From a bacterium (GTDB lineage Bacteria; AUK180), in assembly GCA_030622125.1 (NCBI GenBank), contig JAUXGM010000101.1:1-7961 (forward strand): DNA of 7,961 nucleotides. The letters are read 5' to 3'. Positions 219-7,312 of this stretch are shown piece after piece (positions within the stretch are counted from its first letter, which is position 1; each line of letters begins with the position of its first letter). The notes under the pieces are model-generated. The model was not told where the DNA came from. It worked only from the letters and a program-made list of their open reading frames with translations, and ran no database searches. The position numbers were made by a program, and so were the translations under genes.

Positions 219-2948
219 ATGAATAGTAAAAATCTGCAGAAAAAAAAGAAAATGCTTGAAGCGATGATGAGCTTTCTTCCTGACCAGATCATCAATGCCA
301 AATTGAGTGACAAAAAGATTAAACCTTATGAAATCTCGAATTGTGTAATACTATACATGGATATTTCAGGTTTTACTTCAATGAGCGAACTACTTGCCGC
401 AATGGGAAAAGAAGGTGCGGAGAAACTAACTACCATCATCAATTCCTTTTTTAGGCAATTGATCCGAATCATTGTTAGCAATAAGGGAGACATATATCGA
501 TTCGGCGGCGATGCAATAATTGCATTATTTGATGGTGAAGAAGTCAAGCGAGCTGTAATTGCCGCCGATGAAGCCATTAATTTTGTTAATCAATTTGGAA
601 GTGTTGAGATAGCAGAAAAAACAAGTAAAATAAAGGTACATATTGGTATTGCAAAGGGGAATATTTTTTTTAAGGACCTAAGAACAGATTTTTTAGTTGC
701 GGGTAAACTCGGAAACAGGGTGATGAAATTGGTGGATATTGCAAAACCGGGAGAAATTATTCTAAACTCTGAAGCGAGAAAAAATGTGAAAGGAGTTGAT
801 TTCAAAAATGTTGAAAGGGATGCCTGGAAATATGAAAAAATAACGGATAATAAAGTCTTAAAAAAAGAGGTTACTGAAAAGTTGCAAGCTGAAACGATCG
901 GTTCTGTGGAAAAAAATATATTAAAATTAAAAAATTACCTTCCCGAGTGGGTTAATAATAGAATGAAATTAAGAACTTCATTTGGCAGTAGAGATGGAGA
1001 GCACAGAAAAATGTCATTATTATTCATACATTTTTCTGATATTCCTTATGAGAAAGAACCGTTAAGATCCTCTAAAATTGTAGAAAAGATATACAAAAAT
1101 ACAAAGGAATTGTTCGATAGCTATGGCGGTTGGTTGAGTAAGATAGATATTTATATTGACAGTATAAGAATACTTGGGGTATTCGGATTTCCAAGATCTT
1201 ATGAAAATGATGAACAGAGAGCGGTTTTATTAGCTCGTGATCTATTAAACAATCGTGAACTAAAGGATATCAATATGCGAATAGGGATCAACTACGGATA
1301 TACATTTGGAACCCCGGTTGGATCAAGATTAAGAAGAGAATATACGGTAATGGGAGATGCGGTTAATCTTGCTGCAAGGATTGCGGCGAAAACGGAGAAC
1401 AGATCTATCTTTGTAACAGAAGCAATGTATAATAAAACCGCCGATTTTTTTAAATATAAACAATTAAGAGCAAGGTCTTTCAAGGGAAAAAGAAAGAAAA
1501 TATATCTCTATAAATTTATTGAAGAAAAAAAGAGCAGTGCTACTGTTATATCAAAATGGCTTTCCGAAAGTGAAAAACTTATCGGAAGAAAAAATGCGAT
1601 TAGTAAATTCAAAGAGAAAATGGCACTTGTAAAGAAAAGTAAGGGACAGATCATAGGACTCGAAGCAGAAGCGGGAATAGGAAAATCCCGGCTTGTTCAA
1701 GAATTTGAGAAAGAACTTATTGCTAACAGATACAGTGTATTTAACGGGAATTGTATTTCTTACGGAAGTGCTCTTTCTTATCATCCCTGGTTGAGCATTC
1801 TAAAGGATTTTTTTCAAATCACTCCGGATGACTCAATTGAAATAAGAAAAAATAAAATTAGGGAAACCGTCAAAAAAGTTGATCCCAAACTGATAGATTG
1901 GCTTCCCGTTATCGGTGAGGTTATGGGAATAAAATTCCGTGAAACAAGTTTAACAAAATTCCTTGATGCAAAGATCCGTAAACAAAGATTTTTTGATATT
2001 GTATTTGACTTTCTTAAATATGTCGCTGCTAAAAAACCTATATGTATCATAATAGAAGACCTGCACTGGATAGATACCGTTTCATTGGAACTTGTAAATT
2101 ATATCGGGAGAAATCTTTATGATAAAAAGATACTATTTTTGTTTGCATTTAGACCGATAAAAGAAAAGATAGAGTTTATGGAAAAAGATTTTTGGACACA
2201 TATTTTGTTAAAAGAACTTAGTCAAAATGAAACTGTTGAGCTTGTCAAAAACCTTTTGAATATTAAAGCAATGCCTGAAAAAGTAAGAAAACTGATCGTA
2301 AACCGTTCACAGGGAAACCCTTTTTATGTAGAAGAGATCGTTAAATCACTTATTGAGCAAAGTTTTATTGTAGAAGAGAAAACCGGCTGGAAATTTAGCG
2401 GAGATATTAGTAAATTAAATATACCCGATACGGTTGAAGGGGTAATTTTAAGTAGAATTGATAGATTGACTATGCCTGAAAGAGATATTATTCAAACGGC
2501 GTCTGTTATCGGCAGAGAATTTGATGACTTTGTAATATATGGAATATACCCGAATAAAGAGATGCTTAAAAGTGTATTAAATAATCTGAAAAAATTAGAT
2601 CTTATCAAAGTTGAAAAAACAAAAAAAGAAAAAAGGTACTTTTTCAAACACATCCTTACACAAGAGGCTGCCTATAATACCATTTCTTTTTCCAAGAAAC
2701 AAGAGATCCATTTTTCCACTGGAAATTTTATAGAAAAGGAATTGAAAGAGAGAAGAGAGGAATTCCTTGGATTACTTTCATACCATTTTTATAAAGCAAA
2801 CGATTATGATAAATCATTACTTTATTCGGTTGAGGCGGGTGAAAGAGCAAAAAAAGTCTATGCAAATGAAGAGGCAATTGAATTTTTTACAAGAGCAATT
2901 GATTCCTACCATGAATTGGAGAAATTTGAAAAAAGGACTAAGAAATAA
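219..2948 (+). CDS. soluble-adenylyl-cyclase-like protein: tandem cyclase domains plus AAA/STAND ATPase
   Basis: The 909-residue product is probably a cytosolic adenylate cyclase (ATP to cAMP); no signal peptide or membrane segment is visible. Cyclase domain 1 (about 40-190) keeps both metal-binding aspartates, D48 in DISGFT and D98 in RFGGD, but has K163 and K170 where a complete domain has the substrate-selecting Asp and transition-state Arg. Domain 2 (about 262-432) is the reverse: His271 replaces the first metal Asp and the GD motif is lost, while K308, D380, N383 and R387 (YTVMGDAVNLAAR) are kept. One composite site between the two domains is therefore expected, as in ADCY10. The linker with YLP and GEHRKMSLLF is typical of that family. 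The ATPase has a P-loop at 483-490 (AEAGIGKS, first Gly replaced by Ala), Walker B IIIEDLHWID at 610-619, and GNPFYVEE near 699. The protein ends after at most one TPR-like helix pair (about 860-895); relatives normally carry a long TPR tail. The start is fixed by AAGGAG six bases upstream and by the promoter at 166-194. Confidence 0.9.
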   Translation: MNSKNLQKKKKMLEAMMSFLPDQIINAKLSDKKIKPYEISNCVILYMDISGFTSMSELLAAMGKEGAEKLTTIINSFFRQLIRIIVSNKGDIYRFGGDAIIALFDGEEVKRAVIAADEAINFVNQFGSVEIAEKTSKIKVHIGIAKGNIFFKDLRTDFLVAGKLGNRVMKLVDIAKPGEIILNSEARKNVKGVDFKNVERDAWKYEKITDNKVLKKEVTEKLQAETIGSVEKNILKLKNYLPEWVNNRMKLRTSFGSRDGEHRKMSLLFIHFSDIPYEKEPLRSSKIVEKIYKNTKELFDSYGGWLSKIDIYIDSIRILGVFGFPRSYENDEQRAVLLARDLLNNRELKDINMRIGINYGYTFGTPVGSRLRREYTVMGDAVNLAARIAAKTENRSIFVTEAMYNKTADFFKYKQLRARSFKGKRKKIYLYKFIEEKKSSATVISKWLSESEKLIGRKNAISKFKEKMALVKKSKGQIIGLEAEAGIGKSRLVQEFEKELIANRYSVFNGNCISYGSALSYHPWLSILKDFFQITPDDSIEIRKNKIRETVKKVDPKLIDWLPVIGEVMGIKFRETSLTKFLDAKIRKQRFFDIVFDFLKYVAAKKPICIIIEDLHWIDTVSLELVNYIGRNLYDKKILFLFAFRPIKEKIEFMEKDFWTHILLKELSQNETVELVKNLLNIKAMPEKVRKLIVNRSQGNPFYVEEIVKSLIEQSFIVEEKTGWKFSGDISKLNIPDTVEGVILSRIDRLTMPERDIIQTASVIGREFDDFVIYGIYPNKEMLKSVLNNLKKLDLIKVEKTKKEKRYFFKHILTQEAAYNTISFSKKQEIHFSTGNFIEKELKERREEFLGLLSYHFYKANDYDKSLLYSVEAGERAKKVYANEEAIEFFTRAIDSYHELEKFEKRTKK

Positions 2949-3017
2949 AAACGAATAAAAAGAAAACCAAAATCAGGAATATGAAAGGATTAACTTATGT
3001 TTCAACATTTTTTAAAT

Positions 3018-3022
3018 GGAGG
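3018..3022 (+). promoter_or_regulatory. ribosome binding site of gene 2
   Basis: GGAGG lies four bases before the ATG at 3027. It favours this start over the in-frame ATG at 2997, which has no comparable site and would add ten residues (MFQHFLNGGN) unlike the family N terminus. Confidence 0.75.
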
Positions 3023-3026
3023 AAAT

Positions 3027-3308
3027 ATGGAAGAATATGAGGTAAGAACGGTAAATATTTTTAAGGTATTGTCAAATCCTGTAAGGTATAAGATATTGAA
3101 ACTTTTAGGTGAATTTAATGAAATAACACCGGGAAAATTGAGCAAGATGTTAGGCAGGGACTTTGGAAGAATATCATCACATTTAAAGATAATGAAAGAT
3201 GCGAAATTGGTTCGACATAGAACGGAAAGAGGAAGGGTTTACTATAAAATAAAGAAGTTGGATATTTTGGCAGTAATAGAACGGGTTGAGGATATGGAGA
3301 GAAGATAA
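3027..3308 (+). CDS. ArsR-type winged-helix transcriptional regulator
   Basis: This 93-residue protein is a compact winged helix-turn-helix DNA-binding protein. The first helix, IFKVLSNPVRYKILKLL (about 10-26), is the ArsR hallmark. The helix-turn-helix follows (ITPGKLSKML, then the recognition helix RISSHLKIMKDAKLV), with a wing ending RGRVYYKIK. Length is normal for the family. It has no cysteine at all, so it cannot sense metals through the thiolate sites of classical ArsR/SmtB proteins; its signal is unknown. It starts 78 bases after gene 1 and lies directly upstream of gene 3, with no terminator visible in between, so genes 2 and 3 are probably cotranscribed and the protein may control that unit. 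Its last residues (MERR-stop) are read from the left copy of an 11-bp direct repeat, and the original C terminus may have been MERSGLR (see 3294-3365). The family call is firm; target and ligand are not known. Confidence 0.85.
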   Translation: MEEYEVRTVNIFKVLSNPVRYKILKLLGEFNEITPGKLSKMLGRDFGRISSHLKIMKDAKLVRHRTERGRVYYKIKKLDILAVIERVEDMERR

Positions 3309-3365
3309 TTTTATATGAGTTGTTACGGATTTACGCAATTGCGCAAATCCGCAAATGGAGAGAAG
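3294..3365. mobile_element. putative small palindromic insertion with 11-bp target duplication
   Basis: ATGGAGAGAAG occurs exactly at 3294-3304 and again at 3355-3365, flanking 50 bases (3305-3354) whose right end is a 32-nt near-palindrome abutting the second copy. Joining 3304 directly to 3366 lets gene 2 read MERSGLR and stop at TGA 3376-3378, which overlaps the gene 3 ATG (3375-3377) as ATGA. This is what a non-coding element with target-site duplication would leave behind. No transposase lies inside, so mobilisation would have to come from elsewhere. The repeat and palindrome are seen directly; the insertion event is inferred. Confidence 0.5.
3323..3354. repeat. 32-nt near-palindrome between genes 2 and 3
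   Basis: The segment is symmetric around CGCAATTGCG, with 14 of 16 position pairs complementary. Both mismatches are A-C on the plus strand (3325/3352 and 3333/3344), which become G-U wobbles in RNA read from the minus strand. It could be a mobile palindromic repeat or an operator for the adjacent ArsR-type regulator. It lies after the gene 2 stop and before the favoured gene 3 start, so as a plus-strand RNA hairpin it could also affect gene 3 translation. Confidence 0.65.
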
Positions 3366-3374
3366 TGGATTGAG

Positions 3375-6300
3375 ATGAAATGTGAAAATTGTGGATTTGA
3401 AAATCCTGATGGGAACAAATTTTGTGAGAGTTGTGGAGCAAGATTAGAACTAATTTGTCCGAAATGTGGTCATTCAAATAGTCCAGATGCAAAATTTTGT
3501 GGCAGTTGTGGTGTAAAACTACAAGAAGGAAAACCGCAATCAGTTGAGAAATTTACTATTAAGAAAGGTGGCAAGGGAGTTGCAATATCTCTTAATAGAG
3601 TAAAATACGAAGTGCCTGCAATGCCTGAAGAGCTAACAAGGAAGGTAGAATCGGTTGCAGAAAAGTTGAGGGGCTCAAGAAGAAATGTTGCGATAATATT
3701 TGCAGATGTTTCGGGCTTTACAGCAATGAGCGAGAAGCTTGATCCGGAAGAAGTAACAGAAAAGATGAATGCAGTATTCAATTGCTTGTCCAAAATCATT
3801 TACAGTTATGAAGGTTATATAGATAAATTTATTGGTGATTGTGTAATGGCATTATTTGGTGCGCCTATTGCTCATGAAAATGACCCGTTAAGATCAGTTC
3901 TCTGTGCAATTGATATGATGGCGGCGATGAAGGAATTTGAGGAATTGGGGTTATCAATTGGGATAAATTATGGTAAGGTTGTAGCAGGTGGAGTTGGCTC
4001 TGACCAGAAAATAGAATATACGGTTATGGGGGATACAGTTAATCTGGCACAGCGATTGGAAACTGCTGCCGATAAGGGTGAAATCTTTGTCAATGAAACG
4101 ATATACAATGAAACGAAATCGGAGATAGAATATAAGGAACTAAAATCAATCAAGGTGAAAGGTAAAAAGAAGTTAGTAACTCCGTATGTGCCTATTTTTA
4201 TAAAATCAAGATATGTAATGCGCAGAATTACTGAGATTCCAATGGTTGGCAGAGCAAAGGAGTTAAAAACACTAATTGATATATTTAATCAGGTAAGATC
4301 GGGAAAGGGACAGGTAGTTTCAATTTTGGGTGATGCTGGCATTGGTAAGTCAAAATTAGTTTATGAATTTCGGATACGAATAACACAAATGGAAACAGAG
4401 AATAGAAAATTGAGATTGGGAAAACCAATTTGGTTGAAGGGAAGAAGCATAGACTATTTAAAAGATTCTGATTACTGGTCTTTGAAGCAGATATTGCGAC
4501 AATTGATAGGATTTGATGAGACAGATTCAAAAGAAGAAACCGGTAATACGATAGAGAAATTTATAAGATCATTTAATGATGAATCACTTCAACAAATAAT
4601 ACCGCTCTTAAAATATCTTTTCTCATCACAGATGAGCGAAAAAGAAATTCAGATAGTTGAAAAGATGAAGGCGGACGAGAGATCACTAATATTAAACAGA
4701 TTATTAGGTTTATTGTTCAAAAAAGTATCAAAGAACAAGGCGGTTATTATGGTGTTTGAAGACCTTCACTGGGTAGATACATCAACATTAAGTTTCATCA
4801 AGAATTTCATAAAAGAAATTGAGAATTCCAATGTAATGATGGCATTGATATTTAGACCTGAACTTACAGAAAATAAAAGTTACATTTCTGAATTTTCTCA
4901 TTCCAATCAAATTAAATTAAATCCTTTAACAAAATCCCAAAGTAACAAACTCATTCAAAAAATTATAGTATCCGATACGGTTGATATCTCTTTAAAAGGA
5001 TTAATTTTTGAACGAAGCAATGGCAATCCTTTTTATATTGAACAATTGGTAGAACTTCTTTTAAATGAAAAGATGATAGATCTTGATAATAATAAAGCCA
5101 AGTTAAAATCAGGTAATTTTGATAGGATACCCGTTAAATTAAATGAACTGATTCTTGCAAAGGTTGATAAATTAGACAAAGATATTAAACAAATAGTTCT
5201 TGTGGCATCAGTTATAGGCAGGGAATTTTCAACAAGGGTTTTAGAAACCATTATTGAGATCGGTGCCGAATTACGAACTGCACTTAAAATAGTAGAAAAA
5301 AAGAACCTAATTTATAAGATTACAAGGGATATTGAGGAATCTCTTAAAGGTGCAGATAGATATAAGTTTAAAAATATAATTATTAGGAATACGATATATG
5401 ATTCAATCTTAAAGGCGGAACGAAAAAGATATCATAAACAGGTTGGCGAGACAATAGAACAAATACATAAAGATAATCTTGACAATTATCTTGATATCTT
5501 GATCTATCATTTCAGAAAAGGTGAAGATAGAGACAGGTTATTAAAATACCTACAAATGTTGGGTGAAAAACAAGATAAAGCAGGAGATTATAAAAAAGCA
5601 GAGCAATTATATGAAGAATGGATTATTAGCAGAGCACCGGAGCACCAGGGCATCAGAGCACAAGTTAAATATATAGAAATAAACATAAAGTTAGCAGGAG
5701 TAAAAGATTCATTAGCAAAGTATGATGAGGGACTTGAAATACTTGACAGAATAGAAGATAAGGAAGAGGAACAGATGAAGGGCGAATTGTTAGCCCGACT
5801 ATTTTTGCAAAGAGGTGGGATCTTACAATCTAAGGGAGAATATGATAGGGCGCTCAATTTTGCGAAAGAGGCGGAAAATGTCTTGAAAGATATAATTGCC
5901 CCGTTAGATAGTATATCATTAGATAGTAAACATCTAACAGCACTTATTGGAGACTGCTACAACAACATTGGAGGAGTATATTATTACAAAGGCAATTATG
6001 ATAATGCACTAAAATATTATAATAAATCACTAAATATGCGATTGAAAACACTTGGAGATGAACATCCTGATGTAGCAGCAAGTTTCAACAACATTGGGCT
6101 TGTGTATCATAAAAAAGGTGATTATGACAATGCATTGAAATATTATCAGAAAACATTAAAGATAGAATTAAAGACACTTGGAGATGAACATCCTGATGTA
6201 GCAGCAAGTTACAACACTATTGGGCTTGTGTGTCGTGAAAAAGGTAATTATGATAATGCACTAAAATATTATAATAAATCATTAAATATACGATTGAAGA

Positions 6301-7124
6301 CACTCGGATATGAACATCCCGATGTAGGAATGAGTTATAACAATATTGGGATTGTGTATGATTACAAAGGTAATTATGATAGTGCTCTAAGATATCATAA
6401 TAAATCACTAAATATCTGGCTGAAAATACTTGGAGATGAACATCCTTTGGTGGGATCGAGTTACAACAACATCGGGGCTATATATCGCAACAAAGCTGAC
6501 TATGATAGTGCATTAAAATACTATAATAAATCAATGGATATATTGTTGAAGATATATGGAGATGAACATCCTAATGTAGCAACAAATTACAACAACATTG
6601 GGGATGTGTATTGTGAAAAAGGCGATTATGACAGTGCACTAAAATATTATAATAAATCTCTAAATATATTGTTGAAGGCACTTGGAGATGAACATCCTTC
6701 GGTGGGATTGATTTACAACAATATTGGGGATGTGTATTGTGAAAAAGGCGATTATGACAGCGCACTAAAATATTATAACAAATCAATGGGTATCTGGTCT
6801 AAGACACTTGGAAATAAACATCTTTATATAGCATATTCATATATGGGTTTGGGTGATGTTTGTCTTAATACAAATAAGTATAAACAGGCACTCGAATGGT
6901 TTAAAAAAGCACTTGAAATTCATCTTGAAAAGTTAGGAATGGCACATCCCGAAACCGCAGAGACAAAATTCAAAATGGCGAAAACACTTATAAAAAGTTC
7001 CACCCATGAGATGAGTTTAAATGTGGTATTAAGGTATTTAAAAGAAGCAATAAAAGTTGGCAAGAAAAACAAATCCAAATGGTTAACAGAAGCAATAAAC
7101 TTATTGAAAGAGATAGGAAAGTGA
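3375..7124 (+). CDS. zinc-ribbon / adenylate cyclase / STAND ATPase / TPR protein
   Basis: The 1249-residue product is a likely cytosolic adenylate cyclase coupled to an ATPase switch and a TPR scaffold. Two zinc ribbons open it (C3, C6, C17, C20 and C28, C31, C42, C45). The cyclase domain (about 103-270) has every key residue: metal ligands D111 and D155, ATP-selecting K151 and D220, and transition-state N223 and R227. It should work as a homodimer. The ATPase (about 288-720) has VGR at 291, P-loop GDAGIGKS at 319-326, Walker B MVFEDLHWVD at 459-468, and SNGNPFYIEQ near 548. Degenerate TPRs (about 720-850) lead into eight 42-residue repeats (861-1196) of kinesin-light-chain type. The start at 3375 is chosen because MKCENCGFENPDG is the usual beginning of this family. 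The in-frame ATG at 3315 would add 20 residues encoded across the palindrome, an implausible extension. A GGAG at 3357-3360 is rather distant, and coupling to gene 2 is likely. Product specificity for cAMP is inferred from K151/D220. Confidence 0.9.
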   Translation: MKCENCGFENPDGNKFCESCGARLELICPKCGHSNSPDAKFCGSCGVKLQEGKPQSVEKFTIKKGGKGVAISLNRVKYEVPAMPEELTRKVESVAEKLRGSRRNVAIIFADVSGFTAMSEKLDPEEVTEKMNAVFNCLSKIIYSYEGYIDKFIGDCVMALFGAPIAHENDPLRSVLCAIDMMAAMKEFEELGLSIGINYGKVVAGGVGSDQKIEYTVMGDTVNLAQRLETAADKGEIFVNETIYNETKSEIEYKELKSIKVKGKKKLVTPYVPIFIKSRYVMRRITEIPMVGRAKELKTLIDIFNQVRSGKGQVVSILGDAGIGKSKLVYEFRIRITQMETENRKLRLGKPIWLKGRSIDYLKDSDYWSLKQILRQLIGFDETDSKEETGNTIEKFIRSFNDESLQQIIPLLKYLFSSQMSEKEIQIVEKMKADERSLILNRLLGLLFKKVSKNKAVIMVFEDLHWVDTSTLSFIKNFIKEIENSNVMMALIFRPELTENKSYISEFSHSNQIKLNPLTKSQSNKLIQKIIVSDTVDISLKGLIFERSNGNPFYIEQLVELLLNEKMIDLDNNKAKLKSGNFDRIPVKLNELILAKVDKLDKDIKQIVLVASVIGREFSTRVLETIIEIGAELRTALKIVEKKNLIYKITRDIEESLKGADRYKFKNIIIRNTIYDSILKAERKRYHKQVGETIEQIHKDNLDNYLDILIYHFRKGEDRDRLLKYLQMLGEKQDKAGDYKKAEQLYEEWIISRAPEHQGIRAQVKYIEINIKLAGVKDSLAKYDEGLEILDRIEDKEEEQMKGELLARLFLQRGGILQSKGEYDRALNFAKEAENVLKDIIAPLDSISLDSKHLTALIGDCYNNIGGVYYYKGNYDNALKYYNKSLNMRLKTLGDEHPDVAASFNNIGLVYHKKGDYDNALKYYQKTLKIELKTLGDEHPDVAASYNTIGLVCREKGNYDNALKYYNKSLNIRLKTLGYEHPDVGMSYNNIGIVYDYKGNYDSALRYHNKSLNIWLKILGDEHPLVGSSYNNIGAIYRNKADYDSALKYYNKSMDILLKIYGDEHPNVATNYNNIGDVYCEKGDYDSALKYYNKSLNILLKALGDEHPSVGLIYNNIGDVYCEKGDYDSALKYYNKSMGIWSKTLGNKHLYIAYSYMGLGDVCLNTNKYKQALEWFKKALEIHLEKLGMAHPETAETKFKMAKTLIKSSTHEMSLNVVLRYLKEAIKVGKKNKSKWLTEAINLLKEIGK
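5955..6962 (+). repeat. 126-bp tandem repeat array encoding eight TPRs
   Basis: Eight in-frame units of exactly 126 bp encode 42-residue TPRs beginning at residues 861, 903, 945, 987, 1029, 1071, 1113 and 1155 of the gene 3 product. The consensus is YNNIGxVYxxKGdYDxALKYY followed by NKSLnIxLKtLGdEHPxV. Units 1-7 are close and unit 8 has diverged (MGLGDVCLNTNKYKQALEWF). Units 6 and 7 are nearly identical at DNA level: 6588-6657 and 6714-6783 differ at three positions. This indicates recent duplication or gene conversion. The array likely forms a protein-binding superhelix. Confidence 0.9.
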
Positions 7125-7140
7125 ATAGTGAAGAGTGAAG
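7120..7140. repeat. three heptamers AGTGAA[T/G]
   Basis: AGTGAAT, AGTGAAG and AGTGAAG follow one another without spacing. The gene 3 stop codon TGA (7122-7124) lies inside the first unit. The block is one of three heptamer tracts in this gap. Confidence 0.6.
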
Positions 7141-7153
7141 AAAGAAATACAAA

Positions 7154-7181
7154 TGAACAACGAACAATGAACAATGAACAA
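7154..7181. repeat. four heptamers TGAACAA
   Basis: Four adjacent copies of a 7-bp unit (TGAACAA, with the second copy CGAACAA) form a 28-bp tandem tract in the gap after gene 3. It resembles the short heptameric tandem repeats known from cyanobacteria and some other bacteria. Copy number probably varies between strains. Confidence 0.75.
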
Positions 7182-7214
7182 TTAAAAGAAAATACTGGAT
7201 TTTTCACCCGTAAA

Positions 7215-7252
7215 GGGTTCAGAATGACGAGAAATAGGGGTCCAGAATGACG
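7215..7252 (-). repeat. dispersed-type intergenic repeat with GTCATTCTG units
   Basis: GGGTTCAGAATGACG (7215-7229) and GGGTCCAGAATGACG (7238-7252) match at 14 of 15 positions, 23 bp apart. A small inverted repeat, ACCC at 7206-7209 with GGGT at 7215-7218, sits at the left. On the minus strand the units read CGTCATTCTG followed by GACCC or AACCC, a sequence type I recall as a recurrent intergenic repeat in many environmental genomes. No T-run accompanies the small hairpin, so a terminator is not supported. Confidence 0.55.
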
Positions 7253-7266
7253 GAATATAGTGAAAA

Positions 7267-7287
7267 ATGAATAATGAAGAATGGAAA
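7267..7287. repeat. degenerate heptamers ATGAANA
   Basis: ATGAATA, ATGAAGA and ATGGAAA are adjacent and share the 7-bp period of the two other tracts in this gap. The block is short and A-rich, so chance cannot be excluded when it is taken alone. Confidence 0.4.
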
Positions 7288-7312
7288 ACAAGTGAAAAAC
7301 TAAAAGTAAAAA

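Follow-up and report, generated by a model that had tools for sequence, protein, structure and literature searches.

The window considered here, a stretch of 7,961 nucleotides, raises the question of why a 32-nt palindrome lies between the gene of a small regulator and that of a nucleotide cyclase, and whether it was inserted there or belongs to the regulator. The features concerned, by position in the window, are as follows.

219..2948, + strand: gene 1, a cyclase/AAA ATPase protein upstream of the regulator, given for context only
3027..3308, + strand: ArsR/SmtB-type winged-helix regulator, 93 aa; ribosome-binding site GGAGG at 3018-3022; translation might also begin upstream, at an in-frame ATG at 2997
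3294..3304, + strand: first ATGGAGAGAAG, coding for the regulator's native C-terminal MER-R
3323..3354, no strand: 32-nt dyad palindrome of class A, with boxes TTACGGAT TTACGCAA TTGCGCAA ATCCGCAA; the site that the regulator is proposed to recognise
3355..3365, + strand: second ATGGAGAGAAG, in which GGAGAG (3357-3362) probably serves gene 3 as ribosome-binding site
3375..7124, + strand: gene 3, a protein with zinc ribbon, class III nucleotide cyclase, AAA ATPase and TPR parts

The regulator/cyclase junction

The regulator ends in DMERR, with its stop codon at 3306-3308. Orthologs of gene 3 begin with MKCKKCGFEN or MKCSECGFEN, and the start of gene 3 is therefore placed at 3375, at MKCENCGFENPDG, rather than at 3315, the start of the longer ORF. 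The palindrome is located 14 nt past the regulator stop and 20 nt ahead of the cyclase start codon. The initial annotation explained this arrangement as an insertion, with an 11-bp target duplication, into a regulator/cyclase junction coupled by an ATGA overlap. Its description of the sequence is accurate: the exact direct repeat ATGGAGAGAAG is present at 3294-3304 and 3355-3365, the loop-free near-palindrome TTACGGATTTACGCAATTGCGCAAATCCGCAA at 3323-3354 (14 of 16 pairs) abuts the second copy, deletion of 61 bp would yield the MERSGLR end and the ATGA overlap, as confirmed by reading, and a hairpin or putative binding site would sit just before gene 3. The further judgement that this combination is hard to get by chance holds for the palindrome, which is far beyond chance for this genome; perfect loop-free palindromes of at least 12 pairs number four in 216 kb from G000, sequence that was selected in part because it contained them, and none in a Markov control. 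It does not hold for the repeat or the overlap, both of which are common: exact 11-mers repeated 20-100 nt apart occur at ~0.26 per kb in this genome (median contig), four independent exact 11-mer repeats lie within the window, and 21 of 132 adjacent same-strand gene pairs overlap by 4 nt in a crude ORF call. The second 11-mer includes GGAGAG, the probable ribosome-binding site of gene 3, which would simply account for the purine-rich likeness.

Other genomic copies, for which the initial annotation had called, do exist, and the palindrome is a dispersed element recurring elsewhere, at G000:C178:289-320 and at four places in G002. What recurs is the palindrome alone and not the 50-bp block between the repeats (3305-3354). 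Each match covers 3323-3354 and extends beyond it by a few bases at the most; with 3290-3376 as the query, DNA searches recover this part alone, and the 18 bp to the left of the palindrome are without match. No exact match to the palindrome pattern was found in the viral collection. Furthermore, the MERR end, supposed to have been made by the insertion, is considered native because paralogs share such ends, each followed by its own palindrome: G001:C47 ends in CMERR, G000:C115 in CMERNKK and G001:C66 in CMERNKR. An uninterrupted ATGA junction had been expected in relatives. The closest gene 3 orthologs, G005:C62 (68% identity) and G005:C195 (65%), have unrelated genes upstream, with no regulator, palindrome or ATGA overlap, and thus no relative displays the supposed ancestral junction. 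No empty site, consisting of the flanks and one repeat copy, and no relative with the same junction was found, nor was the regulator/cyclase operon found as a conserved pair in relatives. The exact repeat, its abutment, the restored frame and the existence of further copies speak for an insertion; the native regulator end, the gene 3 orthologs, the non-recurrent block and the repeat statistics contradict it, and it is now very improbable.

A regulator clade with its own palindromes

The window regulator matches Pfam HTH_5 (7.6e-07, above the cut-off) and NCBIfam HTH_metalloreg NF033788 (4.7e-16, 58.4 bits, cut-off 55), and its relatives in the PDB include SmtB (1.8e-14), CzrA and HlyU. On these matches it is assigned to the ArsR/SmtB winged-helix fold family, and all 13 sequences of alignment A1 match an ArsR-type domain. 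No conserved metal-ligand cysteine was found among the 13, and the window protein has no Cys at all; a metal-sensing role would accordingly not be supported by its sequence, whereas the fold-family membership is unaffected. A profile built from A1, in which the window regulator is included and whose score for that regulator is inflated for this reason, retrieved 15 regulators at 84 bits or more in five genomes, one of them also listed in a second, short piece; ordinary ArsR proteins scored at most 57. The five genomes (G000-G004) are related MAGs of one GTDB family. All genomes used are fragmented MAGs, and ORF calls were mechanical.

For each gene, the best 24-nt dyad (12 pairs) in the 70 nt that follow the stop codon was scored. 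All 14 clade genes scored have a downstream dyad of at least 9/12 pairs (nine reach at least 10 and five only 9), whereas 15 ordinary ArsR control genes score 6-9 (P=5e-6, related regulators not being independent data points in this rank test or in the Mantel tests below). The median for all genes is 7, and 9 is attained by 3-9% of them. By contrast, the dyads upstream of clade genes show no significant excess over those upstream of ordinary ArsR genes (P=0.19). A scan of ArsR relatives from many phyla revealed no similar AT-rich dyad behind the stop codon outside the clade; one other locus (L301) carries a GC-rich hairpin there. Two clade regulators, in G000:C52 (L053/L373) and G001:C64 (L049), look frame-disrupted, and a palindrome or box repeats still follow them. 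Separately, the Bathyarchaeal ArsR relatives L276, L289 and L311 have in common a palindrome resembling ATAACAATATTTAAATATTGTTAT upstream of the gene; it is probably an ordinary operator.

The palindromes fall into classes, and most of their arms, centred on the dyad, consist of two 8-bp boxes near TTKCRYAT-NTKCGYAA (by eye).

Class A (window), arm: TTACGGAT-TTACGCAA
Class B, arm: TTGCACGA-TTTCTCAA; in the probable orthologs G003:C6 and G002:C171
Class C, arm: TGTCGCAT-TGTCGTAA; in the probable orthologs G004:C26 and G001:C64
Class D, arm: CTTCGTAT-CTTCGTAT; in the probable orthologs G000:C115 and G004:C17
Class E, arm: GTTCGTAT-GTTCGTAT
Class F: GTACTTTCGTATTTAG, shifted relative to the other classes
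Class G, arm: TTTCGCAT-TTTCGTAA
Class I: in the probable orthologs G002:C327 and G000:C52

The palindrome differs between paralogs and is of the same class in probable orthologs. In the D/E pair (G000:C115 and G001:C66), one base per box differs, CTTCGTAT versus GTTCGTAT, in all four boxes. Protein similarity is correlated with half-site similarity over 12 regulators (Mantel r=0.52, P=0.0007, palindrome centres placed by eye or hand); for the recognition helix alone the correlation is weak (r=0.28, P=0.058). Two ~190-bp homologous repeats (88%) from two species of one genus, L182:2510-2701 and L132:13732-13922, carry classes E and D, respectively.

Most palindrome centres are fully self-complementary, a property to be expected of a DNA dyad and not of an RNA loop. 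The palindromes might instead follow these genes by coincidence, as transcription terminators or hairpins at mRNA ends, in keeping with their location past stop codons and with the fold of the window palindrome as RNA (-16.2 kcal/mol, z -1.88). No U-tract and no intrinsic terminator, defined by a GC-rich stem followed by a U-tract, was found in 2850-3450, however, copies also lie upstream of genes, and the class-specific sequence recurs in distant solo copies; together with the self-complementary centres, these observations render a terminator function quite improbable.

In at least seven cases, a regulator gene lies between two palindromes of its own class (G000:C115, G003:C6, G001:C66, G004:C17, G001:C39, G001:C71 and G001:C118); the window regulator and some others have the downstream copy only. 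In G001:C71 and C118, near-identical regulators lie between inverted copies of the asymmetric class F' (TTCCGTATTTAACCAAATACGCAA), the one class in which orientation can be read, the other five bracketed regulators having symmetric sites. The palindrome-regulator-palindrome unit of these two contigs, 483 bp long and 97.5% identical, has unrelated flanks; identity stops a few bases past the downstream site and ~66 bp before the upstream site. Site and gene were thus shown to have been duplicated jointly at unrelated places. Class F' or near variants occur at ~15 places in G001.

Solo copies between genes

The classes recur across genomes, including two of a sister family (G005 and G006), in which the profile search found no clade regulator (assemblies 72-80% complete). 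A class without detectable cognate regulator is carried by some genomes, all of them fragmented assemblies: G002 for class A, and G005 and G006. The solo copies considered, which are search returns rather than a full census and vary in number with the patterns used, total 56, of which 12 lie at locus edges and 44 have a determinable context. None of these 44 is inside an ORF of at least 120 aa, whereas 86% of random positions are. Of the solo sites, 61% lie in tandem, 25% in divergent and 14% in convergent gaps, the figures for random intergenic positions being 68, 18 and 14.5%; the solo copies are intergenic and without clear promoter (divergent-gap) preference. Three G001 solo sites were compared with G004, and two of them are missing beside the orthologous gene. 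The third is an orthologous intergenic site (G004:C13:125637 / G001:C23:15541) with class F in one species and F' in the other; all four differences match the variant of many other G001 copies, which looks like concerted change.

These data bear on whether the sites are ordinary autoregulatory ArsR operators, the paralogs repressing their own promoter and a few targets, with the solo palindromes as their regulon. Known ArsR/SmtB operators are 12-2-12 inverted repeats that lie ahead of the genes under their control or inside them (PMC8790569), and such a repeat fits within the length of the palindrome; the protein family, the dyad near the own gene and an upstream copy at several regulators are shared features. 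The sites here, however, are longer (up to 32-44 nt), most constant past the stop codon instead of in the promoter, distinct for each paralog and scattered between genes without promoter preference. A coherent regulon of solo sites was rejected, the examined neighbours (WG-repeat, GHL13-like, RhuM, methyltransferase, DUF72, TPR and membrane proteins) having no common function, and two of the three compared sites are absent from the congener. Site position and spread do not fit a plain ArsR/SmtB operator, and this explanation is regarded as unlikely.

Alternatively, the palindromes could be parts of unrelated MITE-like or RAYT/REP elements that lie beside regulators for other reasons. Some solo copies are indeed embedded in longer repeats of ~170-350 bp, and CCGTCCC-type repeats occur near several copies. 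When the flanks of all palindromes were compared, the matches were mainly of low complexity. Since downstream dyads follow every scored clade gene and not ordinary ArsR genes, and since the classes follow regulator orthology, such an origin appears improbable. With MITEs the palindromes share their nature as short, dispersed, noncoding repeats, some within these longer repeats; unlike MITEs, the regulator-linked units include no transposase gene, and target-site duplications have not been demonstrated.

A proposed cognate pair of protein and palindrome

With a probability of roughly 0.6, judged from sequence comparison, the regulator and palindrome of the window belong to a family of cognate pairs specific to this lineage, in each of which a dimeric winged-helix protein of the ArsR type is matched with a long dyad palindrome of its own. 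Two dimers of the regulator most likely occupy the four 8-bp boxes next to each other, as suggested by the ArsR fold, the co-divergence and a dyad symmetry in which the centres are self-complementary. Each paralog probably diverged jointly with its own site, in line with the correlation described above; site and gene would duplicate together, and the sites would in addition spread by themselves into intergenic DNA, as REP-like extragenic palindromes, in line with their distribution. The comparisons suggest joint evolution and joint spread of protein and palindrome. Weighing against the model are the weak correlation for the recognition helix, the want of a significant upstream excess, with no upstream copy at the window regulator, the genomes that carry a class but no detectable cognate regulator, and the five imperfect downstream dyads. 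In the window, the site sits between the regulator stop and the ribosome-binding site of the cyclase, and its occupancy could therefore put a self-limiting roadblock in the way of read-through to the cyclase gene or limit initiation of that gene; alternatively, an RNA hairpin may lower cyclase translation or add to the roadblock.

The closest parallel in plan is the RAYT/REP system, in which a gene lies between two inverted palindromes, with which it co-evolves, and cognate copies are dispersed (PMC2817692). Shared features are a palindrome-bracketed gene, at seven of the regulators and with inverted copies at the two where orientation is readable, a palindrome that evolves with the protein, extragenic solo cognate copies and several classes per genome. 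The present proteins, however, are of 93-100 aa and show only HTH-type domains of the ArsR kind, with no HUH/Y1 (IS200/IS605-type) catalytic motif or transposase domain found; they are not RAYTs because this defining HUH transposase is absent. Furthermore, about 1-15 copies were found per class, and the sites are loop-free four-box dyads, often perfect, whereas REPs are tagged imperfect hairpins; inspection of the flanks revealed no GTAG or CGTC end tag common to the classes.

More tentatively, and with a probability that we consider low, the dimeric ArsR-type protein and its palindrome might constitute a self-propagating pair, i.e., a REP-like system without its own transposase. The protein would then promote or protect the copying of cognate palindromes, for example through gene conversion or replication-linked capture, and the paralogs would have separated into address classes that are blind to one another. 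Searches of the open literature turned up no account of ArsR genes having cognate palindromes dispersed through the genome, which indicates only weakly that none exists. Should the pairs prove mobile, a gene between its own palindromes, the plan of RAYT/REP, would have arisen around a protein that only binds DNA, with implications for the copying and upkeep of extragenic palindromes. The cognate-pair family would also provide a naturally occurring series of related regulators, each with a different DNA address written beside its gene, so that changes in winged-helix specificity could be read directly from genomes.

Several repeats of other kinds were observed. In the sister-family genome G005 (L202-L209; for example L203 ~2494-2533), class B palindromes lie in the middle of a MITE-like ~170-bp repeat with inverted ends like CTATATAACTGCGCATA. 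A repeat that includes GGGACGGTGG / CCACCGTCCC is often located 20-60 bp from palindromes (G001:C74, C92 and C71; G002:C66, C308 and C137; G004:C17), and might be a CGTC-type REP of a RAYT. Within the window, a REP-like hairpin (TTGCCTGTCTGCGTGCTGTCGCACAGCACAGGCAGGCAA) occurs at 35-75, upstream of gene 1, and the noncoding stretch at 7125-7312, between gene 3 and the next TPR gene, contains many short repeated phrases (GAACAATGAACAATGAACAATT, CCAGAATGACGG).
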